NCBI GenBank assembly: GCA_006226755.1
Contig: SBGE01000071.1
Span: 1-44,536 of the forward strand
Reading direction: 5' to 3'
DNA: 44,536 nt
Source of the DNA: Deltaproteobacteria bacterium
Lineage (GTDB): Bacteria > Bdellovibrionota > Bacteriovoracia > Bacteriovoracales > Bacteriovoracaceae
Positions 4,576 through 35,134 of this stretch are shown piece by piece; the first letter of the stretch is position 1, and every line of letters starts with the position of its first letter. A model generated the notes under the pieces. It was not told the DNA's origin. It ran no database searches and was given only the letters and a program-made list of their open reading frames with translations. Made by a program: the position numbers and the translations under genes.

Positions 4576-7500
4576 TTATCTGAGTTCTTTTACAAGGGCC
4601 TCGACCTGCCCTCTATCAGGGGCGTTCGGGTAAATTTGCAAGTATGTTTCGAAAGATTCTACGGCCAATCCAGACTGTCCTGAGGACCGATAAACATAGC
4701 CAAGCTGCTTGTGGATTTCTGGGTTGCCTTCCTCTCGTTTTTTGGCGCGAAGCAACAATTCTCTCGCTTCATCAAAAAAGTTCTGTTTAAATTTAATATA
4801 CGCTAGTCCCAAGAGGGCCTCGACGTATTTACCATTTATTGAAATCGCTTTCTCATAGTTCTTTGTGGAATCAAGCCATTTCTTTAAACCTTTGTTGGCT
4901 TCTCCTCTAACAAAATAACCAAACTCCAAAGTAGGGTTGAGTTTAACTTCTAATTCAGCGTACTCGAGTGCTTTATTGAAATCTCCCATGGCCATATAAA
5001 TTTTTGCCAAATAGTAATGAGTCTTTGGGAATGACTTCAATCTTTCTGTAATGGATAGAAAAATTTCAATCGCAGATTGATATTGTTTTTCTCTGAAAAG
5101 ATATTCTCCAAGAGTCATTCTTGTCTCAAGGTCACCTGGATTAACTTTGATCAATTCGCGTGCATATCGAATTACATCTTTATATCTCTCGTCCAATTTT
5201 GCAGCTTTAATCAAGAATTCATAGAAAGACTGATCCTTCTTGGGAAGATCTTCGACTCGTTTTCTGTATTCTTCAAAAAACTTCATCTGCCCGCTTTTAT
5301 AATAATAAATGGCCATTTCACCAATCAATTGCGGGTTGTCCTTGTTTTCACTTAGAACATCTCTAAGATAACCGAGTGCTGCATCGATATCTGATCTTTC
5401 ATACAGAATTCGTGCATAAGTAATTCGATAGTTGATATTCTTTGGGTCAAGCGAGATGGCCTCTGACAGCATTTGTTTTGAGAGACTGTACTTTCTTGCT
5501 TTTAGATATACTTGTGCCAATAAAAAGTAATCGGCATCATTTAAAGGATATCTCTTAATCGACTCTTTTAACCACTTTACTGTGAGAACTGTATTATCTC
5601 TCTTTTCATAGTAGCGCCCAAGCACAGAAGCATATTGATAAGAAGCTCTGAACTTTGTTTGAGAAACGATATTAATGAGTCTGTTTGCATCAGCTAATTT
5701 CATGGCATTGATATAGGCCATGATCAGTTTGAAGTTGATACCAATATTTAGAGGGTTTTCAGTTCTTAGTTTTTCCAGAGTACTAATTGCAGACTCGAAG
5801 TAACCTCTCATTACTTGAATTTCTGATAGAAGAAGTTGAGCGGGGATATAGCCTGGTGCCATGTCTGCCGCTTCAATGGCCTGCTTGAAGGATTTCTCCC
5901 ATTCTTTCTTTTGGGCAGACAAACGTGCCTGCTTCATGAGATTGATTACTTTACTTTGAAGGATGAGATTTTCAACAGATTGAGTGCCACCCAAACTTAA
6001 TGCTGCCAACCTAGACCGAAGTACATCAGACTCTTGAATCTTCAAGGCTAAGTTGAATAATTCAGCAGCTTTTGTTTGATTCTTGTTAATTGCAGAAAGC
6101 ATCCCCATATTTTCTAAGAATTTTGCATAGTAAACAGGGCTTCCTTCACTTCCGAGTTCTTCAACCCTCTGTAATAGAATTTTATATTTTCTATAATCTG
6201 CTTTTTGAACCTGATAGTCTGAGAATTTCAAAAGAAGTGGTACAGAATTGGGAAATTTCTTGAGTCCTTCTGCAACCAACTCATAACTCTCATCTAATCT
6301 TTCATCTAGCTCGAGAAAACTACTGAGAGCAAGGTAGACATCTATAGTTTTTTTAGGAAGATCTTTTAGTTTGTCATAAACTTTTCTTGCTTTTGGCAAT
6401 TCTCCTGCTTCCCTTAGGACATCCATATAAAATGCCATGAGCTTTACGGAAGGCTTTGAAACACGGATAAAGTTTTCAATGATATTAATAGAGGTTTGAT
6501 ACTTCTCGTATTCAGAATAAAATCTCGCAGCACCCATCGCAACGTTTATGTCACTCAACAATTTTGTCTTGGCGATTTTAATAAGTTTAAAAAGTGTATT
6601 CGCAGCACTAACTTTGTCAGTCGCGTTTTGATAAATCTCGGCATAGGTCAGGATTAACCAGCCTAAGGCCTTATTGTCTCTAAATTTAAAACTAAGACTC
6701 TGCTTGAAGAACACTGCAGCCTGGACAGTATTCATATATCCACCCTTCGAATACGTCTCCACACCTTTGGCCAAAAACTCATTGGATTTCATTTCGTCCA
6801 TCACCTCAACGGCAACAGGAAAATTAATCGCAATTCTTTGTGGAATTGGCTTTTCTTTAGGCTCGTCTTCCCAAAGAAACCATATGACAACGAGAAAAGC
6901 GAAAGCAACTATTGGCTTCATTGGCTTTTTCTTGGGCTCTTTGTCTTCTTTTTTTTCTTTTGGCTCTTTTTTCTTTGGTCGCTCAATTTTTTCTTTTTCT
7001 TCAATGATTCTTCTTTGGAATTCTTTTTCAGCGACAAGAGATTCATTCTTCACAGAGGGGAGAAGTTCATTTAGATTTGCAACAACAGTCGCCTCATTTG
7101 TATCGACGAGATCTTCTTCCTCTTCCGGCTCTTCTTCCTCTTCAGGAACTTCTTCGACTTCTTCTTCCTCTGTCTCATCTTTTATTGGTTCGAGTGGTTT
7201 AAGAACACGTGTCTTCTCTATATCATCCATTACTGGTCTTCTAAGGACGACCGTCTTTTCTACTCCGCTATCATCTTCCTCGTCTTCTTCCTCTATTTCA
7301 TCATCCAATTCATCGAGTTCTGCTTTTTTCTCTTCGTATTTTTTTTCTAGCTCATCATAATTGACATCAACTGCCTGCTCTCCCTCTTTTGAGAATTTGA
7401 ACTCTTCCATCTGTTCATGAGGCTCATCTTCGACCTCCTCTTTAGCAGATTTCAATTTTTTAACCAGATTCATTCTGGCCAATGTATCAACAGTTGTTTT

Positions 7501-7722
7501 TTCTTGGAGTTCTTCAGCGGCTTTTTGCTTTGAAATTATTTGCTTGATCACATCTGTAATGGCTGAAAAATCTTTTACTTTTTTCCAATCTCCACCAGGA
7601 AACATTTGGCAGGGTTCATTTCCACTCACATGGCCTTTTTCATATAGCTCTCCAATTTGACCAGCGTCAAACGGACCGACTATACGGCCTGATGATAATT
7701 TCACCCTGTATTTTTTTTTCAT
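4576..7722 (-). CDS. GYF-domain, membrane-anchored TPR protein
   Basis: A 1048-residue protein. Residues 3-55 match a GYF_2-type domain (GPF at 16-18, then a G-D-W near 44-46), a protein-interaction fold. Residues 95-265 are highly charged and probably disordered, with long Glu runs and a Lys-rich end. Residues about 269-284 form one membrane segment. From about 310 to the end there are many TPR-like helix pairs with typical ALxLxP spacing. The topology is probably a cytoplasmic GYF and acidic region with the TPR superhelix in the periplasm. Three E-[KA]-T-x-V motifs (155-160, 169-174, 210-215) look like short binding or phosphorylation sites. The start overlaps the stop of the NuoN-like gene as ATGA, which suggests co-translation with that module. 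Specific function is unknown; scaffold or assembly factor is an inference. Confidence 0.85.
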   Translation of the reverse strand: MKKKYRVKLSSGRIVGPFDAGQIGELYEKGHVSGNEPCQMFPGGDWKKVKDFSAITDVIKQIISKQKAAEELQEKTTVDTLARMNLVKKLKSAKEEVEDEPHEQMEEFKFSKEGEQAVDVNYDELEKKYEEKKAELDELDDEIEEEDEEDDSGVEKTVVLRRPVMDDIEKTRVLKPLEPIKDETEEEEVEEVPEEEEEPEEEEDLVDTNEATVVANLNELLPSVKNESLVAEKEFQRRIIEEKEKIERPKKKEPKEKKEDKEPKKKPMKPIVAFAFLVVIWFLWEDEPKEKPIPQRIAINFPVAVEVMDEMKSNEFLAKGVETYSKGGYMNTVQAAVFFKQSLSFKFRDNKALGWLILTYAEIYQNATDKVSAANTLFKLIKIAKTKLLSDINVAMGAARFYSEYEKYQTSINIIENFIRVSKPSVKLMAFYMDVLREAGELPKARKVYDKLKDLPKKTIDVYLALSSFLELDERLDESYELVAEGLKKFPNSVPLLLKFSDYQVQKADYRKYKILLQRVEELGSEGSPVYYAKFLENMGMLSAINKNQTKAAELFNLALKIQESDVLRSRLAALSLGGTQSVENLILQSKVINLMKQARLSAQKKEWEKSFKQAIEAADMAPGYIPAQLLLSEIQVMRGYFESAISTLEKLRTENPLNIGINFKLIMAYINAMKLADANRLINIVSQTKFRASYQYASVLGRYYEKRDNTVLTVKWLKESIKRYPLNDADYFLLAQVYLKARKYSLSKQMLSEAISLDPKNINYRITYARILYERSDIDAALGYLRDVLSENKDNPQLIGEMAIYYYKSGQMKFFEEYRKRVEDLPKKDQSFYEFLIKAAKLDERYKDVIRYARELIKVNPGDLETRMTLGEYLFREKQYQSAIEIFLSITERLKSFPKTHYYLAKIYMAMGDFNKALEYAELEVKLNPTLEFGYFVRGEANKGLKKWLDSTKNYEKAISINGKYVEALLGLAYIKFKQNFFDEARELLLRAKKREEGNPEIHKQLGYVYRSSGQSGLAVESFETYLQIYPNAPDRGQVEALVKELR

Positions 7723-9065
7723 TTCAAACTATCTAAGAGTAACGTTGGATTAATACTGAAAAGTATTAGTCCCAATAATACTATTGCACTGTATAATTGT
7801 AACCCAATTGTATTTTTCAACACAGTGTAATTATTGGGGAGGGGGGAAGTTCCAATCTTGAAAAATTTGATAATTTGAATACCGAAAATGATAGTTAAAC
7901 ATGAAGCAAGTAAGTCAGGTATATTTTTCTGTAGCACCAATGACTTCATGATCAGGATCTTAACTTCGTAACCAGGAAAAGAAGGAATACCCAACATAAT
8001 CCCTAGGGTAAACAAGGCCCAGATAACTGGTAAAGGCTTCGCTGGATAGTGAATCTCTTCTGAGTTCTGATTCAGATATTTTGAGGTATGAGATAAAAAA
8101 AGTACAAGTCCGGCACCACTGATAATGATGTAAACAAATGAAATCTCTCTAATTTGAATACTGTTATCAATTGAGAATACAAAGGCCAGAAATCCCATTA
8201 AGACAACATAGAGATAACTGACAGAATCAAAAAAATTCTTGGCCCACGTACTAATAAGCCCTGCGTAAATAATAGTCGCAATCCCCAATATCCTAAATAT
8301 AAAAACCAGATATTCCATATGAAGCTTATTCATGTGTATTTGTAGCACTGAATAGATTTTGAAAGAGGCGAAGAGTAATCCCCCCTTAAGTAAGATCAGT
8401 CCAAATGAACACATATCAAGCTTGGTGGTTCTAATAATATCTGTGTCATTACTATGAAATGGAAAGATACCAAATCTCGAAAAGAAGTAACTTATAAACA
8501 TGACACCCGAGAGCGAAAATAGGTTAACTGACTGTATTTGAATATTTTCAAGGGACATAGACCCCGTCGCCAAGTAGAAAAAAAGAATAAAGAGTAAAAA
8601 GAAACCATTATAGAATTCATTCTTCATGAATATTCGAAGGGCATTCAAACTGACTTTTCCACCTTTATCCATCGCCATCGCACCAAGGAACGAATACGTC
8701 GCTAATTGTGCAGCCAGAATAAAAATCAACAGAGAGTTTGAGGCAATCGATATAATAATTCCCAAAACCATCAAACAAGATAAAATCGCCTTAAAAAAGC
8801 TTTGCCTTGTATCAGGCAGTAAAAAGAACGAAGTTATCTGAATTGCAATGAGAAGGGATGATACATTTAGATCGACCTTGTTCAGCACCAACATATTGGC
8901 GATATTCAATTCATCCAAGTGAAAGATCTTATAAAGCAATATTAACTGCAAAGCTCCGAGAAGGAGCTTAGATATTCCCCAATGTCCAAACCTAGAAACA
9001 CCAAACAATGAAACTGCAAAAAACAAAGACATATATATCGTCAGAAAGCTGAGCATATCTATCAT
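7719..9065 (-). CDS. Divergent NuoN-like membrane protein (N')
   Basis: A 448-residue polytopic membrane protein that aligns by eye with the NuoN encoded at 13985-15454. N110-S-L-L matches NNLL before TM5, R197-x4-PFH matches K224-x4-PFH of TM7, and GIPSFPGYEVK matches the GMPPLSGFVAK of TM12. The TM5 glutamate is replaced by Q120, the TM7 lysine by R197, and the TM8 lysine has no counterpart; the TM12 lysine is kept. This indicates an antiporter-type subunit with a damaged or altered proton path. It is last of seven nuo-like genes in canonical order; ATGA overlaps link it to the genes on both sides. Too divergent to be given the nuoN symbol safely. Confidence 0.78.
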   Translation of the reverse strand: MIDMLSFLTIYMSLFFAVSLFGVSRFGHWGISKLLLGALQLILLYKIFHLDELNIANMLVLNKVDLNVSSLLIAIQITSFFLLPDTRQSFFKAILSCLMVLGIIISIASNSLLIFILAAQLATYSFLGAMAMDKGGKVSLNALRIFMKNEFYNGFFLLFILFFYLATGSMSLENIQIQSVNLFSLSGVMFISYFFSRFGIFPFHSNDTDIIRTTKLDMCSFGLILLKGGLLFASFKIYSVLQIHMNKLHMEYLVFIFRILGIATIIYAGLISTWAKNFFDSVSYLYVVLMGFLAFVFSIDNSIQIREISFVYIIISGAGLVLFLSHTSKYLNQNSEEIHYPAKPLPVIWALFTLGIMLGIPSFPGYEVKILIMKSLVLQKNIPDLLASCLTIIFGIQIIKFFKIGTSPLPNNYTVLKNTIGLQLYSAIVLLGLILFSINPTLLLDSLK

Positions 9066-10225
9066 GACAATGCTCCTTCTTTTCTCTCAAACATACCCGC
9101 AGGAATTAGACTCAACATAACGACAACGGCCATGCTGGCAACGATACCATTCAATGTATCAGCCACATATATTTGCTTAACATTTGTAATCAGTTCCTTT
9201 TGTAAGGGTAACAAAGGAATTGGGCCAATCAGAACAATTACCAAAAACCATTTGATTTTTTCAACAAGGCTGTTTTGATGATCAACTTTATTCAACAGCT
9301 CCCAAACAAAATAGAAAACATACAATTGAATAAAGGGAAGAAGACCCGCTGACTCGCTTGTTTTGACAACCATTGCCAGAATTAAAAACATATACTTCAA
9401 CTGTGACAATCTCATGAATCGGCTGGTCAGCGTTCTATTCAAAATGAAGTATAGAACGGAAGCGAAAATAACGAAGGCCAAGAAGGCAAAGTTTTGGAAA
9501 TAAACATCATTCCACCCAAGCCCAATCACAAAGTCATGCACTACTGCGACAAGTACAATCGTTGAGAAAAACTGTTCAACTTCTCCAGCTGTATTATCTT
9601 TCTTATTAAAAGATGGGATAAAGAACTCTCTCAATATTCCTAGTCTGAATATTAAATAGACAAACAATGTTCCATTGAACATCGCTCTATGGACCTCAAT
9701 ATCTTCAGTTAATCTCATCACCAGCATCAACAGGGTGCTCCCGAGACAAAATGAATTCAAGATAAGCGTAAAACGCTTTTGTGCCTCAAATCTCTTAGTG
9801 AAATAGCTAGTTGAGTTTATTAGTATCAAAAGCTCCAAAATGATGATCTTTACAAAGATATCTTCAACAAGGAATGCCAATAGCAAAAATAAGTTCAACA
9901 ATGGATAGGTAATCGACTTGGTTTTACTCTTAATCGAGTACCCTGAAACGGTCCAGCAACCCAAGAGATATGAAAAAGTAGCCAATACTAGATTAAAGTA
10001 ACTGACGTGTATCTTGAAAGGTATATTAAGCAAGCCACCAAGGTACAGTTCTTTTGTCACTAAATCTGCGTTCAATGGTATGGAAAAAAACAAAATAGCA
10101 GAGTTCACAATGCCAATGACAACGGAAAGCCAGTCTTTCGAAAATCTATTTTCAAAATAGGAATAGAGAAGGCCATTAAGCACAGCGAGTATTGAAGAAA
10201 TTATAATAATCGTAAATGCACTCAT
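9062..10225 (-). CDS. Divergent NuoM-like membrane protein (M')
   Basis: A 387-residue hydrophobic protein, much shorter than the 515-residue NuoM upstream. The best match to NuoM is gapless around TM5: D-I-F-x6-E131 corresponds to D-F-F-x6-E144, so the key TM5 glutamate is kept. A later GPIPLLPLQKE corresponds to GLPGLSGFISE, so the TM12 glutamate is probably kept too. The FHTWLP segment after TM7 is not conserved (a YLIFRLGILRE segment is in its place). The gene overlaps both neighbours by ATGA. Family assignment rests on gene order and these two local matches; on its own the sequence would be an unknown membrane protein. Confidence 0.66.
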   Translation of the reverse strand: MSAFTIIIISSILAVLNGLLYSYFENRFSKDWLSVVIGIVNSAILFFSIPLNADLVTKELYLGGLLNIPFKIHVSYFNLVLATFSYLLGCWTVSGYSIKSKTKSITYPLLNLFLLLAFLVEDIFVKIIILELLILINSTSYFTKRFEAQKRFTLILNSFCLGSTLLMLVMRLTEDIEVHRAMFNGTLFVYLIFRLGILREFFIPSFNKKDNTAGEVEQFFSTIVLVAVVHDFVIGLGWNDVYFQNFAFLAFVIFASVLYFILNRTLTSRFMRLSQLKYMFLILAMVVKTSESAGLLPFIQLYVFYFVWELLNKVDHQNSLVEKIKWFLVIVLIGPIPLLPLQKELITNVKQIYVADTLNGIVASMAVVVMLSLIPAGMFERKEGALS

Positions 10226-11838
10226 AACAATTTCCTCAAATAGAAAATTAATACAAATGCCGTGACAATAATTGTATATAGAAGGTTAGAATTTATCCCC
10301 TTCGGCCGCATTCTGCCGAGATATGCCCCCAAGGTTCCAATTGCCTCAAATGCAAATACCGTTGGACTAAACAGCACACCTCTTAAGATAAGCTCGCTTC
10401 TGTTTCTGACATTTACACTGATAAGATGTGACTTGACCGCCATTCCCTCTTCAAAAAATGGAAGTCTTCCAATAATAAATCCTTGAATTTTCAATTTGTA
10501 TCTATCAACAACCTCATCAAATTGAGAAAGCTTGGCTTGCTTCCAATAAACCCAAGCAAAAACCAACAGAGGAATCAAAATGGATGACATGAATATCAAA
10601 TTCTTAGTTCTCCATGGGGTTTGCGCCTGAAAAACAGACCCTTTTTCTAACACAACCAAAAACTTAAATGCATTCGATTCAGAAAAAATATCTGGTAACG
10701 TCGCATAGTACATAAAACTTGTAATCAAAACCGTTAGCAATAGATCGATTACATCACCTGCTTCATTATCCTCGACAATGGGATCCTTCTTTACTGTCTT
10801 AAAAGCTTTTTCAAGTCCATAATAAATCACAATCAAAATTGCGAAGAACGGAATAATCAGATTCAATGCTTTGATCGGTGAAGATCCTATTTCGTTTAGT
10901 AACATGTTTAAAGACCAGCCCCCCGGGGTAAAAGGGGACAAGCCAAGACAAAATAGAATTATCAAGACATTTATTTTATTCACTGATGTAAATTCAACTT
11001 TTGATTCATCTTCAACCAGAAGAAAATACCAGAACAATGGTATCAGCAAAGCTACATTTGATATGATTCCAAATTGAAAAAATGACGGTATCAAAATTAA
11101 TGAGATAGAAGGAACAAGCCCAAAAACTCCTGGGCGTTTTCTCATCACAATTTCATAAATCAATAAGAGAGCCCCGAGTATGGAAAATGCTATTAACCCC
11201 TCCATGAAAACTCTATCACGTCCGATTGACTCCAAAAACGGAACGCAACCCACAAGTGCCCACATGAACGATGGGAACATCGAGAAACTCTCTTCCTGGT
11301 GGTCATAGTTGAATCTCAACAATACAGAAAAAGTCAAAAGGGTAAGCAGTATGCCATCGACGGTTGAAAAGAATGGAATTTCGAGTACGTGGATAATTAA
11401 AAGAATACTAAGCAACAGATAAATTATTCTTACCGCCGCTTTGTTCTTTTCTTGAGACTTTGGTAAAAAACTTACAATCAATCCAATCAGCAGAATGAAA
11501 GTTGTAAAGTTTGATACAAAAAACAACAACCCTGCAAACACGCCAGAAAGTTGATAGGGTTGATTTTCCTGATTAATGCCCTTGGTGGTTAATAAGATCC
11601 ACATTGTAAAAAATAGCATTCGCGAACTACTACTTTCAAATACGATCAAGTCGGGAATCAGACTGTATTGAAACTTGCCATAAACATTAAAAACCAACAA
11701 TCCCAATGATGTAGCAAAAAGGAGCTTAGTTGACACAAGAAGCCAGCTTTTATTGGCTAAATAAAACGTCATGCCCTTCTTGTTACAAACAAGAATCATG
11801 AAGAGATAGAATAGAGAGATAATTACCAACGCCGTCAT
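10222..11838 (-). CDS. Divergent NuoL-like membrane protein (L')
   Basis: A 538-residue polytopic protein in the NuoL position, against 723 residues for the NuoL upstream. Weak matches to NuoL are seen near TM5 (SNFTTF for DNLLSV, with Gly where NuoL has E154), at LGLSPFTPGG for the AGFPLFSGF of TM12, and at the C-terminus, where a G-x-x-x-R...G...Y pattern precedes a last hydrophobic helix ending LRKLL, as NuoL ends in WKLV. The NuoL C-terminal amphipathic HL helix is probably represented by residues about 420-500. The TM7 lysine and TM8 histidine motifs (KSAQFP, LIHAATM) are not recognisable. ATGA overlaps on both sides. Assignment depends strongly on context. Confidence 0.62.
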   Translation of the reverse strand: MTALVIISLFYLFMILVCNKKGMTFYLANKSWLLVSTKLLFATSLGLLVFNVYGKFQYSLIPDLIVFESSSSRMLFFTMWILLTTKGINQENQPYQLSGVFAGLLFFVSNFTTFILLIGLIVSFLPKSQEKNKAAVRIIYLLLSILLIIHVLEIPFFSTVDGILLTLLTFSVLLRFNYDHQEESFSMFPSFMWALVGCVPFLESIGRDRVFMEGLIAFSILGALLLIYEIVMRKRPGVFGLVPSISLILIPSFFQFGIISNVALLIPLFWYFLLVEDESKVEFTSVNKINVLIILFCLGLSPFTPGGWSLNMLLNEIGSSPIKALNLIIPFFAILIVIYYGLEKAFKTVKKDPIVEDNEAGDVIDLLLTVLITSFMYYATLPDIFSESNAFKFLVVLEKGSVFQAQTPWRTKNLIFMSSILIPLLVFAWVYWKQAKLSQFDEVVDRYKLKIQGFIIGRLPFFEEGMAVKSHLISVNVRNRSELILRGVLFSPTVFAFEAIGTLGAYLGRMRPKGINSNLLYTIIVTAFVLIFYLRKLL

Positions 11839-12146
11839 TGCACTTTTATTTTCATCTCATCAGTTATTAATGTTTTCTTCTCTTTATAGAACCGCATTGC
11901 AAGAAGCACTCCGACAATGATTTGAAATAAACTGTACATCACAAGAACCGAAGGCGAAGCAATTCCACTGATTTTAACCCCTTGTTTTTGAGAAAAGAGA
12001 AGCATTAGTGAAATAGATATCGTCATCACGTTCAAGCAAAGTATAGACGTGAGAATATTTCTTCTAAGCAACACTCCCGCCATCGCCATGAAAAAGAGTA
12101 CCAATAATGGATAGATCTCTTTTTCAATCATTTCTAAACATCCCAA
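11835..12146 (-). CDS. Divergent NuoK-like protein (K')
   Basis: A three-helix membrane protein of 103 residues aligning without gaps to NuoK at 19224-19529: RRNILTSILCLN against RKNIIAILLGIE, and QIIVGVLLAMRFY against EAAVGLAIVIRFF. The two membrane glutamates required for proton transfer in NuoK (E36 and E73 in the upstream copy) are N39 and Q75 here. The frame can start at residue 1, overlapping J' by 23 bases, or at Met6 (12131), overlapping by 8; the sequence does not decide. MnhC/MrpC-type antiporter subunits are relatives, but the A-H-J-K-L-M-N order points to complex I. Confidence 0.8.
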   Translation of the reverse strand: MGCLEMIEKEIYPLLVLFFMAMAGVLLRRNILTSILCLNVMTISISLMLLFSQKQGVKISGIASPSVLVMYSLFQIIVGVLLAMRFYKEKKTLITDEMKIKVQ

Positions 12147-12585
12147 TCAACATCACAACACCCATAAAAACCAGCATTCCTGTTACGAAAACCAATGAAC
12201 TTTCAAAGGCCAAGTTGGTTTTTTTAACAATTTGAACCAATCTTTGATTTTTCTCTTCAGAATAAACAACTAGTCCAATTGCACCCAAAATAAATGCTGT
12301 GAACATCATCGTAATGACGGGGGTCATATTTCTCTTATAAACTTTTTGAAACTCCTTCTCGAGATCAACATTCATAAAAAGCTGCAACGTTATAATCAAG
12401 GATGTGATTATCATTACAAACAACACAACCGATGATTCAAGAATTTCACCCTGAATAAGATAGGCTACAAATATCACTAATCCAAAAGCTGCATAGACGA
12501 AACCGGCAAGCTGGGGGAGGCGAGTAAATACAACAATTCCACCGATAATCAAGAGAGTAATGGCTAGATAAAACATCAAACCCAT
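12124..12585 (-). CDS. Divergent NuoJ-like membrane protein (J')
   Basis: A 153-residue protein with about five membrane helices in the NuoJ position. The early TRLPQLAGFVYAAFGL segment corresponds to the NuoJ helix pair after the first hydrophobic segment. The TM3 region of NuoJ, which in the upstream copy reads VVYVGGVVILM and carries the glycine-rich pi-bulge, is replaced by VVLFVMIITSLI, so the Tyr and both glycines are gone. A strong AAGGAG ribosome binding site five bases before the ATG fixes the start, inside the end of H'. Assignment rests on position, length and helix pattern. Confidence 0.68.
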   Translation of the reverse strand: MGLMFYLAITLLIIGGIVVFTRLPQLAGFVYAAFGLVIFVAYLIQGEILESSVVLFVMIITSLIITLQLFMNVDLEKEFQKVYKRNMTPVITMMFTAFILGAIGLVVYSEEKNQRLVQIVKKTNLAFESSLVFVTGMLVFMGVVMLIGMFRND

Positions 12586-13625
12586 TGCATCTCCTTTGCG
12601 AGAAGGTATACATAACTTAACAATGTGTTAAAAATTATCAGTGGTGTCCAAAACTTCCACGCTTTATCCAACAGCTGATCAGATCTTAACTTGGGAATCA
12701 ACCATTTTATACTTGATGCCAGAGAGTGAACAAAGATGGCCTTAAATAAAATGCTAGCGACTTGGACGAGATAGAGTGTATTTGGAAAATTTTCAATTAT
12801 AAAAGAAGTCCCAGGTAACACATCGTATCCCCCGAGAAATAAGTGCGAAAATATGACAGCATGTGCAAATGTATGAACTCTTTCTGCAAGTGTTGTTAAC
12901 AGCAAGCTTAGTGAATTTGTATAGAAGCCCAAGTTAAATCTTGTTCCTGACAATTCAAAAGTGAACATGTTTTTCAAATAAAGTGATTTAACTGTAATGT
13001 AATAGAAATAAGCCAATGCCATGACTGGCTGTAAATAAAACCCATTCAAGTCTAATGAATTAAACAATACTTTATTTTGAACATTGTTAATCTGATGTAA
13101 ATCGGATGCCTGATAAGTAATAGAAAGATTCACCACAACTAGAATAAATATCAACTCTACTGAAAAAAACTGCATCACTTTTTTTAGATTCCCAAGAATT
13201 GATAGGTTGTTATTTATAGACCAGCCTACAAGAATATGTGTTAACACCCCGGCCTCAACTAGCGCCATAAATATATATAGTCCGTTTTCTCCTGTATAAA
13301 TCTCTGATCTAATAATTGTTCTATTTAATACCATAGGCTCACAGAAAGTGAGGGCGGCCAATGGTATGAAGCAAACACCCAGGTGGATTACTGGAAAGAA
13401 AATTGATTTTAATTTGCTCCCAGTCTCAATCCATGAAAACTCTTTTCCAATTGCATGAAAAAACGAAACAAAAAATTTTTTAAAGCCTCTATTCTGTGAT
13501 TTTGGAGTCCCTCCAGAATAGAGATTGACCATGATTCTTTCGAGATTCGTCACCAAATAAAGAGATGGTGCTAATATCACAAAGAGAAAGATAATTTTTG
13601 TGAAAAGGATCATGCTCTCATTCAT
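12576..13625 (-). CDS. Divergent NuoH-like membrane protein (H')
   Basis: A protein of about 349 residues that matches NuoH in several places: LERIMVNLYSGG for AERKISADIQMRQG, GWSINNNLSILGNL for GYSSNSKWSMLGGM, FELSGTRF for TEFTGMRF, SHLFLGGY for AALYLGGY, and IPKLRSDQLLDKAWKFWTP for LPRLRVDQLMTLCWKYLTP. Missing are the GPNRVG and QFLADGVK signatures and the acidic ETNRAPFDL...E...E loop that lines the quinone cavity. The start chosen is Met7 of the longest frame, 11 bases after a GGAGG; the longer form begins at 13643. Its 5' end overlaps the A' stop, its 3' end the J' start. This is the clearest family match in the second set. Confidence 0.82.
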   Translation of the reverse strand: MNESMILFTKIIFLFVILAPSLYLVTNLERIMVNLYSGGTPKSQNRGFKKFFVSFFHAIGKEFSWIETGSKLKSIFFPVIHLGVCFIPLAALTFCEPMVLNRTIIRSEIYTGENGLYIFMALVEAGVLTHILVGWSINNNLSILGNLKKVMQFFSVELIFILVVVNLSITYQASDLHQINNVQNKVLFNSLDLNGFYLQPVMALAYFYYITVKSLYLKNMFTFELSGTRFNLGFYTNSLSLLLTTLAERVHTFAHAVIFSHLFLGGYDVLPGTSFIIENFPNTLYLVQVASILFKAIFVHSLASSIKWLIPKLRSDQLLDKAWKFWTPLIIFNTLLSYVYLLAKEMQWV

Positions 13626-13968
13626 CAAGAGATATACCTCCACAAATTCTTGCTAAAAAATATGAAATCAAGATTGTTATAACAATCCAAATGCTCATGA
13701 GGTAATACGGCCAGTTTTCTTTACCAAACTCAACTTTAGGAGTGAGCATAATCAACAAAAAGCCGGCGATGGAAAAAAGTCCGAATATTATGGAGAGAGA
13801 AAAGTAATTGTTTTTGTGACGATTGGTTTTTCTAACATAAGATTGGAGTCCACTTTCAAGGGACTCCAGTTTTCTTTTCGTTATCTTTTTCGAATTGATA
13901 TAAAGGGCAATCAGTATTGGTAAACCCAAACAGAGAGCCAGAAATACCAAAAAGTGATGAAGCTCCAT
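13618..13968 (-). CDS. Divergent NuoA-like protein (A')
   Basis: A three-helix membrane protein of 116 residues aligning with NuoA at 21294-21743. The loop motif YECG is LESG (Ser39 in place of the Cys), and the second helix FIIFDVEGA is FGLFSIAGF, so the Asp and Glu of the FDxE motif are Ser66 and Ala68. The loop between is shortened and basic. An AAGGA four bases before the ATG supports the start. It follows nuoN by only 16 bases with no terminator, so the second set is probably co-transcribed with the first. Confidence 0.78.
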   Translation of the reverse strand: MELHHFLVFLALCLGLPILIALYINSKKITKRKLESLESGLQSYVRKTNRHKNNYFSLSIIFGLFSIAGFLLIMLTPKVEFGKENWPYYLMSIWIVITILISYFLARICGGISLDE

Positions 13969-13984: not shown

Positions 13985-15454
13985 TTATGGCCCAAGGAAA
14001 ATTGAAGCCCCCTCAGTAAGTCTCATGATTCCACTCCAGAACAGACCAAGTGCCAGCACTGGAACAGTCAAGACAAGAATAATACTCTGATTCATGACTC
14101 CAAAACCTATAATAGGCTCCATGGATTCTACGTCTTTCAAGACCATCAGCCTGATAATCTTCATATAATAGTATAGAGATACAACAGAGTTAAGAACAGC
14201 AATCAACGCTAACATGTAATGCTTTTCTGAAAGAAGAGCACCAAGAATGTTAAATTTGGCTACAAAACCACTTAGTGGTGGCATACCGGCCAAAGAAAAC
14301 ATCACGACTGTCATCATAATTGCCATAAGCGGATATCTTTTAATTAAACCGCTGAATCTTTCAAAATGATCATTGCCATACTTATCCGCCACAAAACTTG
14401 TGACGTAGAAAGCCACCAGTGTCATAAACAAATATGTGATTGCATAAAAGAGAATGGATCTGGTTCCAAGCTCATTAATAACGACAACACCCATCATCAT
14501 CATCCCAGCATGGGAGATTGAACTGTAGGCCAGCATTCTTTTAACTGATCTTTGCCCAATGGCCGAAACGTTACCAACGGTCATAGTAAGTGCCGATATA
14601 ACGGACAGGGCCCCAACCCAAGTAACCTGCAGAGCACCTTCTTGTCCAAAGAAGGTCATTGTTACTCTAAGTAGAATTGCCAAGCCGGCAACCTTCGGAA
14701 CAATGCTGAAGAAAGTTGTAACAGGAAGTGGAGAACCCTCGTAAACATCTGGTGCCCACATATGAAATGGAACACAAGCGATTTTGTACCCAATTCCAGC
14801 AAAGAACATAATAAATGAAGGAAGTAGTACAGCTAGCTGTGCTGTCGATAGTCCATTCAATCCCGCAATAATGTCTGCAAACTGGATTGACCCAAATACA
14901 CCAAAGATGTGACTCATACCAAAAAGCATAATACCTGAAGAGATTCCACCATAAAGTGAGTACTTCAGTCCGGCCTCACTTGATCTTTCTTCATTCTTTT
15001 TAAATGAAGCAAGTGCATAGGAGAGAATCGAAAGTGTTTCAATACCAATGTAGACCATCAACAGGTTATTGGCAGAAGCTAGAATCATCCCACCAATCAT
15101 TACCCCAACCGCCATAATGGCGAATTCTGATTTTAGATTGTCATAAATATCTTTTGATTCCTTTGAAAGATAGATCGCTCCCATCGTTCCAAGAACCATC
15201 AACATCTTTGACAGGGTTGAAAATGGATCAATGGTCATTGATCCAGTAAATATCATGGTCGCTGGTTTGCTTAAGTCGGCAGCCAAATTTACAAAAACAA
15301 AAGTTAATCCAAAGAATGCCGCCAAGTAGAAGAAAGGCTTCTTCTTTTCTTCTCTATCATAACAAGCTTCAATGAAAATCAAGCCCACCATAATCACCAC
15401 AGACAAAAGCTCTGGTACATATCTGGAAATACTAGCTAAATAATTCAGTGCCAT
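13985..15454 (-). CDS. nuoN: NADH-quinone oxidoreductase subunit N
   Basis: An antiporter-like proton-pumping subunit of the complex I membrane arm, 489 aa. The key charged residues are present: E139 in TM5 (YIGIET), K224 in TM7 (GYKIACVPFH), K254 in TM8 (VPKVAG), and the TM12 lysine in SGFVAK. WAPDVYEG after TM7 is the family hallmark. It is the last gene of the canonical set; nuoM ends ten bases upstream and the divergent A' gene begins 16 bases downstream. Confidence 0.96.
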   Translation of the reverse strand: MALNYLASISRYVPELLSVVIMVGLIFIEACYDREEKKKPFFYLAAFFGLTFVFVNLAADLSKPATMIFTGSMTIDPFSTLSKMLMVLGTMGAIYLSKESKDIYDNLKSEFAIMAVGVMIGGMILASANNLLMVYIGIETLSILSYALASFKKNEERSSEAGLKYSLYGGISSGIMLFGMSHIFGVFGSIQFADIIAGLNGLSTAQLAVLLPSFIMFFAGIGYKIACVPFHMWAPDVYEGSPLPVTTFFSIVPKVAGLAILLRVTMTFFGQEGALQVTWVGALSVISALTMTVGNVSAIGQRSVKRMLAYSSISHAGMMMMGVVVINELGTRSILFYAITYLFMTLVAFYVTSFVADKYGNDHFERFSGLIKRYPLMAIMMTVVMFSLAGMPPLSGFVAKFNILGALLSEKHYMLALIAVLNSVVSLYYYMKIIRLMVLKDVESMEPIIGFGVMNQSIILVLTVPVLALGLFWSGIMRLTEGASIFLGP

Positions 15455-15464
15455 ACTTCAAACC

Positions 15465-17012
15465 TTAATTAAATTTTGCAAGCAACGAAACTAGGTTGCC
15501 TACAGATACCTTCATTACGTCAAGGATTGGAGATGGATAAATTCCAAATACAATCACTGCAATAATAAGTGGTGACATGTAAAAGATTTCACGTGCATTC
15601 ATGTCAGTGTAACTCTTGCAATCATCAAGAACTTCTCCAAAGAACATTCTCTTGAACATCCAAAGAAGATAAGCCGCACCGATTAGAAGTCCAAGTAGCG
15701 CAATTACAGTAATAGTTGTGTATTTCTGATAAATTCCAAGAAAGATCAAAGCTTCTGAAATGAATCCAGAAAGTCCAGGCAGACCCATGGATGCAAACAT
15801 CGCAATGATGAACACGATACTATACTTAGGCAACTGAGTATAAAGACCACCGTAACCCTTAGTTCCGTCAGGTCTAACAATCCATCTATGGTGAGATCTT
15901 TCATAAAGAATCCCGACCAAAAGGAACATCATCGCTGTTGAAGTTCCGTGGTTGAACATCTGAAGTACAGCACCATTCATACCTTGAACTGTCATTGCAG
16001 CAAGACCAAGCATTACAAATCCCATGTGGGATACTGAAGAGTAAGCAATAAGTTTTTTAACATCCGTTTGGGCCATGGCACAGAGTGCACCGTATACCAC
16101 GTTGATAAGACCTAGCCATGCAATCGCATCAGCAAAGTAAACTGATGCTTGAGGAAAGATAGGGAAAGCGATTCTTAGGAACCCATAAGTACCCATTTTC
16201 AAGAGAACACCGGCCAGAATAACTGAAATTGCAGTTGGGGCCTGAACGTGAGCATGCGGTAGCCACGTATGGAATGGGAACACTGGAACCTTGATAGCAA
16301 AACCGATAAACATCATCACAAAGAAGAACTTCGCAAAACTAATATCTACTCCGAAGATTCTGAGCGACAGATCAGTAAACTTACCACCTGATAGAGCTAG
16401 AATATCAAAAGTGTTTTGACCAATTGATGGGTTATCTGCGGAAACAAAATAAAGAGCAACCATACCAACAAGCATTAGTACGGATCCAAAAAAGGTATAA
16501 AGGAAAAATTTAACCGCAGCATATTCTCTGTTTTCCCCACCCCAGATACCGATAAGGAAAAACATTGGAATCAACATAACTTCCCAGTAAACGTAGAATA
16601 GGAAGAAGTCGAGCGACATAAAAACACCAAACACTGTCGACTGTAGGAATAAGAAAAGAGCAAAGTAAGCCTTCACACTTTTAGAAATTGTCCAGCTACA
16701 AAGTACACAAAGTACACACAGTAGTGATGTCAAAACAATCATCGGTAGAGAAATACCGTCTACTCCTAAAGAGTAGTTGATGTTGAACTGACTAATCCAT
16801 GGGTGAAGTACTTTGAAGTATTCTTGCATTCCCGGCGTCGTAGGATCGAACTTCATATAAAGTACAATCGACAGGGCGAAAGTAATGATCGAATTGATCA
16901 ATGCTGTGTATCTAATAACTCCCTCTTTATTCCTTGGAAGCAACAACACGACCAGAACACCAATCATTGGCATCCACAAAATCCAGTTCAACAAATTAGA
17001 ATGACCGTTCAC
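15465..17012 (-). CDS. nuoM: NADH-quinone oxidoreductase subunit M
   Basis: Central antiporter-like subunit of complex I, 515 aa. Diagnostic features are E144 in TM5 (YVYWEVMLIP), the TM7 lysine in FAIKVPVFPFHTWLP followed by HVQAPT, the TM8 lysine in LLKMGTYG, and the TM12 glutamate in LSGFISE. The start codon is GTG, seven bases after AAGGAG; there is no better upstream ATG. About 28 bases separate it from nuoL. Confidence 0.96.
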   Translation of the reverse strand: MNGHSNLLNWILWMPMIGVLVVLLLPRNKEGVIRYTALINSIITFALSIVLYMKFDPTTPGMQEYFKVLHPWISQFNINYSLGVDGISLPMIVLTSLLCVLCVLCSWTISKSVKAYFALFLFLQSTVFGVFMSLDFFLFYVYWEVMLIPMFFLIGIWGGENREYAAVKFFLYTFFGSVLMLVGMVALYFVSADNPSIGQNTFDILALSGGKFTDLSLRIFGVDISFAKFFFVMMFIGFAIKVPVFPFHTWLPHAHVQAPTAISVILAGVLLKMGTYGFLRIAFPIFPQASVYFADAIAWLGLINVVYGALCAMAQTDVKKLIAYSSVSHMGFVMLGLAAMTVQGMNGAVLQMFNHGTSTAMMFLLVGILYERSHHRWIVRPDGTKGYGGLYTQLPKYSIVFIIAMFASMGLPGLSGFISEALIFLGIYQKYTTITVIALLGLLIGAAYLLWMFKRMFFGEVLDDCKSYTDMNAREIFYMSPLIIAVIVFGIYPSPILDVMKVSVGNLVSLLAKFN

Positions 17013-17040
17013 CGGTTAACTCCTTATTAAATAATTACCT

Positions 17041-19212
17041 TTAAACCAATTTCCAAATATAACCAACCATAACAAATAGGAAGACAATGAAGTAAAACTG
17101 AATCTTCCCGTTTTGAAAGGTTCTTAAAATAACATTGAAAAATCTTACTGATGCACCAGTACCATCAACACCAATACTGTCGACGATTACGTTATCTACC
17201 CATCTCGCAATTCTATAGAAAAATCTATTAACCGCTTCCCATCCATCGATCGCGTATTTGTCGTAAACACCCATATCGAATCTGGCGAGTAGATTATTGA
17301 AAGGCAGAAGACCTCTTTGAAGAACGCCTTTCACGTAAAGATCATCAAAGTAGTACTTGTTTTGAAGCGCTCTATACCAACCGCTGAAAGTATTAACCCA
17401 ACGACCAGGATTCCAAGATCTTTTGGAATACATCATGAAAGCAATAAACCATCCTGATAGGGCAATTACGATAGACGCCCAAGCACCAATATTGTGAATC
17501 AAGTGAACATGATGAGCTTCTTCCTTACTCATTCCATGGTCTGGATCGTAGTGAGACTCTTCGAATACTCTATCTGCACCAGTATCAACACTACCAAAAG
17601 GAAGTGACTTATATGCTTTGAATTTTTCAACATGTGGTTTTTCAATAAGAGTCGCAAACCACTCTTTATGTTCTACTCCAGGAACTTTTACCCAAGCACC
17701 AAAGAAGTTACCAGAATACCAAGCGCCTAGAGTAAAGACAGTCAGGATAAGAAGGGGAACGTTTCTGTTCCAGCTCAATTTCTCAACATGAGTATGATCA
17801 TAAAGATCTTTATCTCTTGGCTCACCAAAGAAAGTCAGGAACATCATTCTGAACATATAGAAAGCTGTTAGAAGTGCTGCAGTAAATCCAAGGAATGCAG
17901 GGATCCAATAAGCTTTACTATGTGAAGCCATAACGAGTGCATCACCAAGAATTCTATCTTTAGAAACAAAACCACTAAAGAGAGGGAAGCCAGCAATGGC
18001 GAATGTACAACAAAGCATGGCCAAGAACGTGAGTGGCATTTTCTTTCTTAAACCACCCATGCGAGGCATTTCTTGAACGTGCGCATGTGTGTGGTGATCG
18101 TGAAGTGAATGAATTACAGATCCGGCAGAAAGGAACAAACAAGCTTTGAAAACAGCGTGTGTAATCAAGTGCATGAAAGCTGCGTTGTAAGCACCAACAC
18201 CAATACCGAGTACCATGTAGCCAAGCTGTGAAATGGTCGAGTAGGCCAAAACTGCTTTAATATCTGTCTGAACCAAAGCAATAGTTGCAGCACCAAAAGC
18301 AGTAATCGCACCAATATACGCTATAAAGGTAGTGATTCCACCGAGCTCCATGAGCGGATACATTCTAAGTGATAGATAAACACCAGCAGCAACCATGGTT
18401 GCTGCGTGAATCAGAGCTGAACATGGTGTTGGACCCCACATCGCATCTGGTAGCCAAACCTGTAGTGGAAACTGAGCCGACTTTCCAATCGTTCCCATGA
18501 AGATTGAAAATGCTGCGAATGTTGCCAACGGAATACCGACTGCGGTCAAACCATCAAAAGCACCACTTGAAATAGCTGCATAAATATCTGTGAATCTTAC
18601 TGAACCAACAGTGGTCCAAATCGCCAGAATACCGACCAGGAAGAAAACGTCTCCAATTCTTGTCGTCATAAAGGCTTTCATCGATGCATTTCCTGCACCT
18701 TCTTTCTCGTAATAGAAACCAATCAACGAGTAAGAACAGAAACCCATAAGTTCCCAGAAAATAAAAACAGACAGAAGGTTGTCAGAAAGAACTAGTCCCA
18801 ACATTCCAGTAGTAAAGAGAGAAAGATAAACAAAAAATCTTCCAAATCTCTTATCTTCGGCCATGTAATAGGTAGAAAAGATGTGAATTAAAAAAGCACA
18901 TCCAGCGACCATGAAAAGCATGACTGCTGACATATTATCTAGATAGATACCCATATCTACAGCAAAGTCAGAAATACCGGCTGCCTTTAGGTCAAACCAT
19001 GTAAATACTTTGTGTACATAGTAGTCTGTCGAATACTTTCCAAAAACAAAGTCTTTGAAAATTCTAAAAGAATAGAAAAGAGAGACAAACATACCAAAAC
19101 AGCTGAGAAAGACTCCCAACTTGGTCCATCGCTTAACTAGGAATACATTGACCGCAAAGGCCAAAAAAGGTCCGAGTACGATTGGTAAAATGCTTCCGAG
19201 TGTATACTCCAT
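17041..19212 (-). CDS. nuoL: NADH-quinone oxidoreductase subunit L
   Basis: Distal antiporter-like subunit, 723 aa, longer than the common 610-660 because of a loop after TM14 containing many His, Asp and Glu residues (about 535-580). Conserved residues include E154 (FWELMG), K243 (GKSAQFPLQVWLPDAM), H268 (LIHAATMVAAG), the HAVFKA lysine of the central helix, and the lysine in FSGFVSKD. The C-terminus carries the long lateral helix and final anchor. An AAGGA seven bases before the ATG supports the start. Confidence 0.96.
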   Translation of the reverse strand: MEYTLGSILPIVLGPFLAFAVNVFLVKRWTKLGVFLSCFGMFVSLFYSFRIFKDFVFGKYSTDYYVHKVFTWFDLKAAGISDFAVDMGIYLDNMSAVMLFMVAGCAFLIHIFSTYYMAEDKRFGRFFVYLSLFTTGMLGLVLSDNLLSVFIFWELMGFCSYSLIGFYYEKEGAGNASMKAFMTTRIGDVFFLVGILAIWTTVGSVRFTDIYAAISSGAFDGLTAVGIPLATFAAFSIFMGTIGKSAQFPLQVWLPDAMWGPTPCSALIHAATMVAAGVYLSLRMYPLMELGGITTFIAYIGAITAFGAATIALVQTDIKAVLAYSTISQLGYMVLGIGVGAYNAAFMHLITHAVFKACLFLSAGSVIHSLHDHHTHAHVQEMPRMGGLRKKMPLTFLAMLCCTFAIAGFPLFSGFVSKDRILGDALVMASHSKAYWIPAFLGFTAALLTAFYMFRMMFLTFFGEPRDKDLYDHTHVEKLSWNRNVPLLILTVFTLGAWYSGNFFGAWVKVPGVEHKEWFATLIEKPHVEKFKAYKSLPFGSVDTGADRVFEESHYDPDHGMSKEEAHHVHLIHNIGAWASIVIALSGWFIAFMMYSKRSWNPGRWVNTFSGWYRALQNKYYFDDLYVKGVLQRGLLPFNNLLARFDMGVYDKYAIDGWEAVNRFFYRIARWVDNVIVDSIGVDGTGASVRFFNVILRTFQNGKIQFYFIVFLFVMVGYIWKLV

Positions 19213-19223
19213 TCGGGTTTCCT

Positions 19224-19529
19224 TTATTGCAACAACTGGGTCGCATCATCAATGTGAATGCTTTCCCTGATTTGAAAAAATCTAATAACAATAGCAAGTC
19301 CAACAGCTGCTTCAGCTGCGGCAATAACTATAATGAAGAGTGACATAATGTGACCATCAAGGTTGTGGTTCACAAATCTTGTATAGGCAGCGAAATTCAA
19401 GGCTGCTGAATTTAGGATCAACTCAATCCCAAGAAGAATCGCAATAATATTTTTTCTGGCGATCATGACAGCAATGCCACATACGAACAGAGCAAATGAA
19501 ATAGCTAGATAACTTGATAGTGTAATCAT
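19224..19529 (-). CDS. nuoK: NADH-quinone oxidoreductase subunit K
   Basis: A three-helix membrane subunit, 101 aa, with both essential membrane glutamates: E36 (LLGIELILN) and E73 (AAEAAVGL). It overlaps nuoJ by four bases (ATGA) and is followed by nuoL after 11 bases. It serves as the intact reference for the residue losses in the second NuoK-like protein. Confidence 0.96.
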   Translation of the reverse strand: MITLSSYLAISFALFVCGIAVMIARKNIIAILLGIELILNSAALNFAAYTRFVNHNLDGHIMSLFIIVIAAAEAAVGLAIVIRFFQIRESIHIDDATQLLQ

Positions 19530-20062
19530 TCTTCTCTTCTCCTTGGTCTGGCGATTAGTGCCGCACCAATAAGTGCTCCGAGCAATAGAACTGATGAAAT
19601 CTCAAAAGCAAGAACATGATCGGTGATGAGTAGTTCGCCAATTTTTTCAACAGTCGTTTCATAGGGCGGTAATTCTGTTTTTGGGGTAGCTTTGTTGACA
19701 TTGGCGATGATCTTCAAAATGACCAAAGCCATAATCAATGCTGAAAAACCTGCAAGAGTAAACGTTTTCGCGTTACCCATGGGAGCCACTTTTTCAATAC
19801 CGAATTTATTGACCGACTTATTGTCATTTCCACCAGTAAGCATGATGGCAAACAACATAAGAATGACAACTCCACCGACGTAAACAACTAATTGAGTCGC
19901 GGCCAAAAAGTCAGCAGACAGTGTTACATAAAGTCCGGATACACCAATAAGTGTTGTAAGGAGATAAGTACATGCGTGCATAAGATTTGGTGCCAAAACT
20001 ACGGCCAAGGCACCACAAACTGTAAGAGCAGCAGAAGAAAGAAATAAAAAATTATCAAACAT
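19526..20062 (-). CDS. nuoJ: NADH-quinone oxidoreductase subunit J
   Basis: A five-helix membrane subunit, 178 aa. The TM3 segment LVVYVGGVVILMLFAIML contains the conserved Tyr and the glycine pair that form the pi-bulge linked to the E-channel. The C-terminal region ends in a basic tail. GGAG eight bases before the ATG supports the start. In most bacteria nuoI lies between nuoH and nuoJ; here nuoH precedes nuoJ directly. Confidence 0.95.
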   Translation of the reverse strand: MFDNFLFLSSAALTVCGALAVVLAPNLMHACTYLLTTLIGVSGLYVTLSADFLAATQLVVYVGGVVILMLFAIMLTGGNDNKSVNKFGIEKVAPMGNAKTFTLAGFSALIMALVILKIIANVNKATPKTELPPYETTVEKIGELLITDHVLAFEISSVLLLGALIGAALIARPRRREE

Positions 20063-20080
20063 CTTTATATCTCCAATATA

Positions 20081-21280
20081 TTAATGATGTCCCGCCGCTG
20101 CAGCACCTGTCTTGAAGACAAGGTTCCACATAGACTCACCATTAAAAAGGTAAATCCATACAGCAATACCAACTAAATTAAATAGAGCAATCGGAGTGAG
20201 GTATTTCCAACAAAGAGTCATAAGTTGATCAACTCTAAGTCTTGGAAGCGTCCATCTAATCCAAATCACCACATAATAAAGAAGAACTGTCTTGGTTACA
20301 AAGCCACCAATTTCCAAAAATTGTCCAATCATTCTAGCTGGAGCCATTGGAAGGCCGACTTTAGTATGAAGAAATTCTAGCGAACTCAATCCAAAAGGAA
20401 CCTGGTATCCGCCAAGATAAAGAGCTGCGGCTACACCACAAACCACGAATACCTCAACGTATTCAGCTAACGCAAAGAAAGCAAATCTCATTCCAGTAAA
20501 TTCTGTGTGGTAACCAGAAACAAGTTCTGATTCCGCTTCTGGTAGGTCAAATGGTGCTCTATTTGTTTCAGCAAGCATACCGATGAAGAAAACAACAAAG
20601 CTTATGATTGTGAATGGGTTGTGAAAAATAAACCACTGATGTGGAAGTCCACCTTGCCCGTCAACGATCGTTTGAAAGTTAAGTCCACCACCAAGCATAA
20701 CCATTGCAATGATTGAAAGAGTAACCGGGACCTCATAACTGATAATTTGTGAAGCACCTCTCATACCACCAAGCATAGACCACTTGGAGTTAGACGAATA
20801 ACCACCAAGAAAAATACCTACACCGACAAGTGATGAAACACCCAGCACGTAGAACACACCAATATTTAGGTGCGTAAGAGTAAATCCTGATGAGAATGGA
20901 AGTACTGCTAATGTTGCAAACACACCAACCATGCACAGGATTGGCGCGATAAAGAACAAATACTTGTCAGCGGCCTTTGGAAGAATATCTTCCTTCATGA
21001 TCATTTTCACACCGTCAGCAAGAAATTGAAGAAGTCCAAACGGCCCTACTCTGTTTGGACCTTGTCTCATCTGGATATCTGCAGAAATTTTTCTTTCGGC
21101 ATATGTTCCAAGACCACCAATTAGGGCCATGACGTTAACAACAACAAAAGCTGCTACAAAATAAACAACAAATGCCATCATTCCACGCGTATCAAAATTT
21201 AAAAGATACGTGAGCTTTTCATTTAGAGCTTGATAAGGAGGGGCTTCTGAGAAAAAAGAAACTACGTTATCATTCATCAT
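20081..21280 (-). CDS. nuoH: NADH-quinone oxidoreductase subunit H
   Basis: Quinone-site and E-channel subunit, 399 aa. Diagnostic segments are AERKISADIQMRQGPNRVGP (61-80), QFLADGVKMIMKED (85-98), the acidic loop AETNRAPFDLPEAE and onward to TEFTG (237-263), LAEYVEVF (271-278) and the PRLRVDQLM near the end. All acidic positions expected for a working enzyme appear to be present. Start is the first of two ATGs with a weak GGA upstream, so a one-codon-shorter form is possible. nuoA ends 13 bases upstream. Confidence 0.95.
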   Translation of the reverse strand: MMNDNVVSFFSEAPPYQALNEKLTYLLNFDTRGMMAFVVYFVAAFVVVNVMALIGGLGTYAERKISADIQMRQGPNRVGPFGLLQFLADGVKMIMKEDILPKAADKYLFFIAPILCMVGVFATLAVLPFSSGFTLTHLNIGVFYVLGVSSLVGVGIFLGGYSSNSKWSMLGGMRGASQIISYEVPVTLSIIAMVMLGGGLNFQTIVDGQGGLPHQWFIFHNPFTIISFVVFFIGMLAETNRAPFDLPEAESELVSGYHTEFTGMRFAFFALAEYVEVFVVCGVAAALYLGGYQVPFGLSSLEFLHTKVGLPMAPARMIGQFLEIGGFVTKTVLLYYVVIWIRWTLPRLRVDQLMTLCWKYLTPIALFNLVGIAVWIYLFNGESMWNLVFKTGAAAAGHH

Positions 21281-21293
21281 TCACATCCAGTAC

Positions 21294-21743
21294 TTATGCT
21301 GTTTTTCGCTCAGCCTGAGCTTGATCTCTGTCATGGTGATAAGATTCAAGGGTAAAACTCTTGACCCAATCAAGGTCACCTTTTTTCCAGCAATAAACGA
21401 TTCCTGAAACCAACACACCAATAAATAGGAGTAGGGAAGCGAGAACCAATCCACCTTGAGCAATCCCATTAAACTTCTTAAAAATCGCCGCAACAGGAAA
21501 CATCAATGCTCCTTCAACGTCGAAAATAATAAAGATCAACGAGACAACGTAAAATCGAACGTTGAAGTTTGACCAAGCTGTACCAACTGGATCTTCACCA
21601 CATTCGTACGCCTGTTCCTTAAGTTCAGATGGGTTGTGAGGTCTTAATAGTTTACCAACCAGAAGTGCTCCGACTACCATAACTATGGCAATCACCATGA
21701 GAATCACTACTGGCATGTATACATCTAGATTGTATGCCGGCAT
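21294..21743 (-). CDS. nuoA: NADH-quinone oxidoreductase subunit A
   Basis: A small three-helix membrane subunit (149 aa) at the junction with the peripheral arm. YECG with C48 and FDVE with D75 and E77 are intact. The longest frame begins at 21779, but the ATG at 21743 has GGAG eight bases upstream and gives the usual NuoA N-terminus. It is the first gene of the operon; unusually, nuoH follows rather than nuoB, so no peripheral-arm genes are present in the window. Confidence 0.95.
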   Translation of the reverse strand: MPAYNLDVYMPVVILMVIAIVMVVGALLVGKLLRPHNPSELKEQAYECGEDPVGTAWSNFNVRFYVVSLIFIIFDVEGALMFPVAAIFKKFNGIAQGGLVLASLLLFIGVLVSGIVYCWKKGDLDWVKSFTLESYHHDRDQAQAERKTA

Positions 21744-35110: not shown

Positions 35111-35134
35111 TTTAATACTCCTTAAATGAAATAA

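Follow-up and report, generated by a model that had tools for sequence, protein, structure and literature searches.

A divergent second complex I in Bacteriovoracaceae, apparently native to the lineage and probably redox-dead

Introduction

Complex I is the classic example of a proton pump driven by redox chemistry. Here we analyse a second, strongly divergent set of complex I genes in a member of the Bacteriovoracaceae (Bdellovibrionota; deposited as Deltaproteobacteria bacterium, assembly GCA_006226755.1), which lies on contig SBGE01000071.1, positions 1 to 44,536 of the forward strand; this whole stretch of 44,536 nucleotides is referred to as the window. Seven genes in the order A'-H'-J'-K'-L'-M'-N', hereafter termed set 2, stand there next to the membrane genes of an ordinary complex I (set 1). 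From the gene content, this second, shrunken complex I, which the window genome shares with dozens of relatives, probably does a different job, because the complete gene set is still inherited despite the loss of its electron, quinone and proton parts.

The second membrane arm

Set 2 consists of seven open reading frames (ORFs) on the reverse strand, from 7719 to 13968, immediately past the end of set 1 nuoN at 13985, and adjacent pairs overlap by 4 to 26 bases (Table 1). The initial annotation, made from the sequence alone, had recognised here a very divergent second membrane arm in tandem with the normal one and had given its genes in the order above. The ORF coordinates agree with that order, and the arm is not confined to the window genome, since the same order recurs at the same site in 33 genomes of the family.

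Six of the seven subunit identities that had been proposed (A', H', J', K', L' and N') are backed by profile-profile comparison with orthologs from the family that are less eroded, while that of M' stands on position and helix pattern. In Pfam, J', L', M' and N' matched no complex I family; J', L' and N' were recognised by the set 2 profiles of their counterparts. The AlphaFold model of L' is of low confidence (pLDDT 55, pTM 0.49), and the underlying alignment took in less eroded orthologs that may have steered it; the top 23 matches of this model in the Protein Data Bank are all antiporter-type subunits, from complex I, formate hydrogenlyase and Mrp, with a best Foldseek E-value of 2.3e-3 and none below 1e-3. 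For M' there was no fold or profile match; its AlphaFold model was too poor to use. A scan of the genome contigs with H' gave no match.

Table 1. Features of the window discussed in the text (aa, amino acids; TM, transmembrane helices).
Feature	Coordinates	Strand	Basis and remarks
A' (NuoA-like), 116 aa, 3 predicted TM	13618..13968	(-)	Pfam PF00507, E 3.5e-6; 91% probability to intact set 2 A profile
H' (NuoH-like), 355 aa	12576..13643	(-)	Pfam PF00146, 3e-28; 99.8% to intact set 2 H profile
J' (NuoJ-like), 153 aa, 5 predicted TM	12124..12585	(-)	Without Pfam NuoJ match; 97% to less eroded set 2 J profile; position
K' (NuoK-like), 103 aa, 3 predicted TM	11835..12146	(-)	Pfam PF00420, 1e-10; 97% to less eroded set 2 K profile
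L' (shortened NuoL-like), 538 aa	10222..11838	(-)	91-95% to less eroded set 2 L profile; Foldseek
M' (shortened NuoM-like), 387 aa	9062..10225	(-)	Position and helix pattern only; same slot in 33/33 genomes
N' (NuoN-like), 448 aa	7719..9065	(-)	99.8%, E 1.7e-27, to less eroded set 2 N profile
Set 1, nuoN-M-L-K-J-H-A, ordinary 11-subunit-type complex I without E-F-G	13985..21779	(-)	ORFs; placed between mfd and set 2
mfd-like gene, marker of the conserved site, not a member of the complex	21936..25430	(+)	Named from size and sequence
Protein with GYF-like N-terminus and TPR, 1048 aa, 1 TM	4576..7722	(-)	TPR by Pfam; GYF-like by eye; 4 bp overlap with N' stop

Partner genes elsewhere in the genome

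The window genome holds two NuoD genes. Contig C33 encodes, behind a 554-aa lipoprotein-like gene, B' of 178 aa, a CD' fusion protein of 528 aa and I' of 165 aa, which fall into the Pfam families PF01058, PF00329, PF00346 and Fer4; set 2 is therefore not an isolated membrane arm. The ordinary B, C, D and I genes on contig C267 are the partners of set 1. The earlier statement that B, C, D and I are missing from both sets thus holds within the window, but each set has its own copies elsewhere in the genome. Neither set has an E-F-G module of its own in this genome: none lies beside CD', and the sole PF01512 (NuoF) match sits in a hydrogenase cluster, beside the large subunit. That cluster (L141:3506-8358), which comprises a large subunit, a small subunit, a NuoG-like protein and the NuoF-like one, probably encodes an NAD-linked [NiFe] hydrogenase. 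The lipoprotein-like gene represents a family of about 500 aa with no significant Pfam match (L036:7553-9217), which stands upstream of B' in almost all genomes of the Bacteriovoracaceae with B'-CD' and was found neither in the group g33 nor in the other families tested.

Origin of set 2

An intact form of set 2, with NADH-module genes, is found in one genus of the window's family (G014, G082, G089 and others) as well as in G031 and G028. Its peripheral block reads B-CD-E-F (L111-L116, with PF01512 matches beside CD) and, in G014, lipoprotein-B-CD-E-F-G-I (L135). The intact genus also has A-H-J-K-L-M-N, followed in G014 and G089 by the TPR gene; in G031 and G028 the contig stops after K. Other families of the phylum carry B, fused CD, E, F, G and I in identical order, the F gene of one of them (G152) being masked by ORF calling.

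Sequence comparison ties these complexes together. With the complex of other families, the intact set 2 of the Bacteriovoracaceae matches at 5e-213 for CD (in G152) and 1e-148 for L, as against only 7e-88 and 2e-107 for set 1, the arm lying upstream of set 2. In two genomes of other families, G152 and G260, the membrane block lies next to mfd (L152, L158), the same site as in the window. In a tree of 59 NuoD/CD sequences, the 46 set 2 CDs of the family form one clade with 100% SH-aLRT support, apart from the NuoD of set 1, and its branches are short where the complex is intact and long where it is eroded. Because of this orthology, the shared mfd-adjacent site and the single CD clade, set 2 is best read as the native complex I of the lineage, orthologous to the complex that other families encode as B-CD-E-F-G-I plus A-H-J-K-L-M-N, and set 1, the apparently normal one, as a different complex I of the 11-subunit type. 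In G097, a genome of another family, set 1 and not set 2 is found near mfd (L155), so that either arm may have been the first to stand there.

A further complex I-like group was seen in G174 and G185, which carry extra B-D-I-like genes behind the ordinary nuo operon (L149:4453-6576 and L150:3424-5650). The extra D protein (340-350 aa) matches NuoD at an E-value of only ~1e-6 to 1e-10, and perhaps belongs to another complex I-like or hydrogenase-like assembly.

What the eroded complex has lost

Residue states were read from alignments, with the quinone ligands in T. thermophilus numbering. In the intact genomes, NuoD His38 and Tyr87 and all readable cysteines of cluster N2 are present. All other scored genomes of the family are without an intact E-F-G module and have His38 changed to a residue that varies by lineage; in the CD' of the window genome His38 is replaced by Lys and Tyr87 by Ser. 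Only a weak NuoF match is left in G005 and G051, where His38 is already lost. In G044 (L181:156-2395), a NuoG-like ORF of 449 aa and one of 297 aa behind CD' are possibly remnants of the NADH module.

The four N2 cysteines of NuoB, CCCC when complete, are replaced by FSED in both the window genome and G066, and by SSES in G033; all four are also lost in G004, G010, G021, G027, G035, G043, G056 and G060, and single ligands in G001, G016 and G040. By parsimony on the CD tree, the quinone site was lost once, whereas N2 disappeared completely at least six times, with a total of eight when single ligands are counted, all of them estimates from a quick tree with many weak forks. The two CxxCxxCxxxC [4Fe-4S] motifs of I' (N6a/N6b) are retained in the window's genus and in several other N2-less lineages; they are lost in G016, G021 and G035 and partly in G004 and G057.

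The antiporter-type subunits are affected as well. TM5 Glu and TM7 Lys are retained in the antiporter subunits of the intact G014; in the N' of the window they have become Gln and Arg. The corresponding motifs of L' and M' are not recognisable in the window and not alignable there, and because residue-level alignment is unreliable in the most eroded genomes, we claim for these two subunits only the loss of recognisable motifs. From the intact genus through the window to G015, the length declines from 656-675 to 538 and 217 aa in L', from ~493 to 387 and 245 aa in M', and from 460 to 448 and 310 aa in N'. In G004 (L052:1384-3743, L177:2453-4854), B', CD' and I' are accompanied by genes in the A', H', J' and K' slots, and a 214-aa remnant replaces L', M' and N'; as read from its genes, this is a complex I reduced to its core.

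Retention and selection

Many of the surveyed genomes are drafts. The 33 genomes with the seven genes in intact frames (27 and six more) span many genera, and this recurrence of genes, order and site excludes chance. The two unlinked blocks are concordant in presence in 30 of 31 genomes (Fisher 1.6e-4, a value to be taken only as a guide because the compared genomes are related). Both are gone together in g7 (G006, G052), g33 (G032) and G018, where the TPR gene stays; the lipoprotein gene also stays in g7 and G018. The single discordant genome, G093, has no lipoprotein gene either, pointing to a gap in its assembly.

Dozens of residues are invariant in CD', including the C-terminal Asp-Arg of NuoD. 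Between the two closest congeners, the share of differing sites in B' is 28% at first, 16% at second and 57% at third codon positions; as second positions differ far less than third, B' is evidently under purifying selection, which the congener comparison makes visible in H', A', K' and N' as well.

The distribution of Na+-NQR, an alternative NADH:quinone oxidoreductase, follows the erosion. Within a scored set of 25 genomes it is present in all 20 eroded ones, the window genome among them, and in none of the five intact ones; it was not seen in two incomplete genomes outside this set (G051 and G072). The enzyme is known from Bacteriovorax marinus (PMC4014512).

A redox-dead complex and its alternatives

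Taken together, we consider it rather probable that set 2 is the membrane half of a native complex I that has turned redox-dead and been retained for a non-catalytic role. The ten remaining proteins would still assemble into a membrane complex shaped like complex I, which would neither oxidise NADH, reduce quinone nor pump protons and would serve the membrane in a structural or regulatory way; in the window's genus, the [4Fe-4S] motifs of I', both of them intact, could confer redox responsiveness. Quinone reduction probably passed to Na+-NQR, and to set 1 where present, which would have released the old enzyme from catalytic constraint, if the events followed in that causal order. Among the roles that the initial annotation had considered, an "uncoupled regulator" was the closest guess, and as to the uncoupling it agrees with the missing coupling residues. 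The wider proposition, that an entire respiratory complex of many subunits has been turned, across a large family, into a membrane machine that takes a new role and neither performs redox chemistry nor pumps, with intact, half-eroded and redox-dead versions all extant, appears to us about evenly poised between right and wrong.

Two other explanations, of about equal weight, are the main rivals, and each seems unlikely. One is slow neutral decay, in which the old complex I became redundant once Na+-NQR arrived and has since been drifting, functionless, to loss. The graded loss of modules and residues, the disappearance of both blocks in g7, g33 and G018, the state of G004, left with A, H, J and K and the remnant after K, and the very fast evolution of L' and M' are all as expected from it; however, intact frames and constant order in so many genera, the all-or-none loss of two unlinked blocks, the purifying selection on five subunits and the invariant structural residues of CD' speak for maintenance. 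The other is an altered redox enzyme or sensor, in which electrons from ferredoxin or flavodoxin would enter I' at N6a/N6b for some other use, N2 being dispensable or replaced. Such an enzyme would explain why both I' motifs persist in the window's genus and several other N2-less lineages, but not why they are lost or incomplete in five genomes, nor why the quinone-ligand and N2 positions are replaced differently by lineage. Less likely than either, and in our judgement quite improbable, is a regulatory or accessory partnership in which the eroded arm binds or modulates set 1. The tandem location and probable co-transcription in many genomes would suit it, yet the eroded set is the sole arm beside mfd in five genera (G009, G015, G017, G022 and G037), a NuoN search found no set 1 ortholog in G022 or G037, and the fused CD' is the only NuoD-like gene found in G009, G043 and G060 (the contig ends before mfd in the latter two). 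Since the eroded arm thus stands alone beside mfd in some genomes, an obligate form of the hetero-assembly with the normal arm that had been suggested is contradicted. Tandem duplication of the upstream arm with later divergence, which had been regarded as the simplest reading, is very improbable as a recent event: gene order and adjacency agree with it, but the intact members of the family are orthologous to, and closer to, the complex of other families, the CD' clade is separate from set 1 NuoD, and the eroded arm occurs without set 1. Sets 1 and 2 may nevertheless be very ancient sisters, from a duplication that preceded the split of the families.

Several observations weigh against a redox-dead complex under selection. 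Nothing by Pfam, profile-profile comparison or fold search ties M' to NuoM; L' and M' share only 27-28% identity between closest congeners, and synonymous sites are saturated at that distance, so that no clean dN/dS can be had. N2 is retained in several eroded lineages (e.g. G002), and for this reason some eroded members may keep partial redox chemistry. On the tree, the quinone site was lost only once, and the association with Na+-NQR hence counts as one correlated event, not twenty. If the redox-dead reading is true, the family offers a natural series in which the NADH module, the quinone site, the terminal cluster and the proton channels are lost stepwise and the remainder is kept, which would show the parts needed beyond catalysis and the order in which coupling can be dismantled. 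It would also advise caution, as nuo genes that look like a full set in these genomes need not mean an active complex I.

Neighbouring genes

Set 1, whose genes are 67-93% identical among congeners, also spans L035:7850-10651, and its N2 and quinone-site residues are present. In a genome of another family (L157), a set-1-like operon is followed by genes resembling 2-oxoacid:ferredoxin oxidoreductase, a hint of ferredoxin as electron donor. The mfd-like gene also borders the set 2 arm in other families (L152, L158) and where set 1 is missing.

The TPR gene adjoins N' wherever the region was read, and follows set 1 N or mfd in genomes without set 2; in most of the family it sits behind the complex I genes, and it is still in place where either the eroded arm or set 1 has been lost. 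We considered whether set 2 might anchor the TPR protein or the lipoprotein and dropped the idea, because both persist in genomes from which the whole set is deleted; they are neighbours rather than obligate partners. At 34811-36294, F-type ATPase-like subunits c and a and an I-like protein were recognised by eye only; the c subunit has 99 aa, starts with a signal-like stretch and appears, again by eye, to have Gln and Glu-Ser where some species bind Na+.

Comparison with known systems

By descent set 2 is, on the present sequences, a complex I; by its defining features it would no longer qualify as one. With the respiratory complex I of other families of the phylum (NuoA-N) it has in common the subunits, the two-block split, the fused CD, the mfd-adjacent site and direct descent, and it differs in being without E, F, G and the quinone ligands, in the absence of N2 ligands in the window's genus and in its short L' and M'. 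The 11-subunit complex I of the ferredoxin or F420H2 type, which set 1 resembles, is also without E-F-G. These 11-subunit enzymes retain N2 and the quinone site, in contrast to set 2 in the window, which has neither. A group 4 [NiFe] hydrogenase was rejected, as no NiFe-binding CxxC motifs were read by eye in CD', which groups with NuoCD; an Mrp antiporter was ruled out by the presence of the partners H', B', CD' and I'.

In the open-licence literature searched, we found no description of such a redox-dead complex I. The nearest concept is that of the Ehr complexes, relatives of complex I and of group 4 hydrogenases that have lost the ligands of the [NiFe] catalytic metals and in which ion transport is suspected to be coupled to some other redox reaction in the cytoplasm (PMC6349859). 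Compared with Ehr, set 2 here has additionally lost the N2 cluster, the quinone site and recognisable antiporter motifs. It is also reminiscent of pseudoenzymes, in which the fold is kept and catalysis is lost, with the difference that here a whole ten-protein membrane complex would be concerned, with living intermediates.

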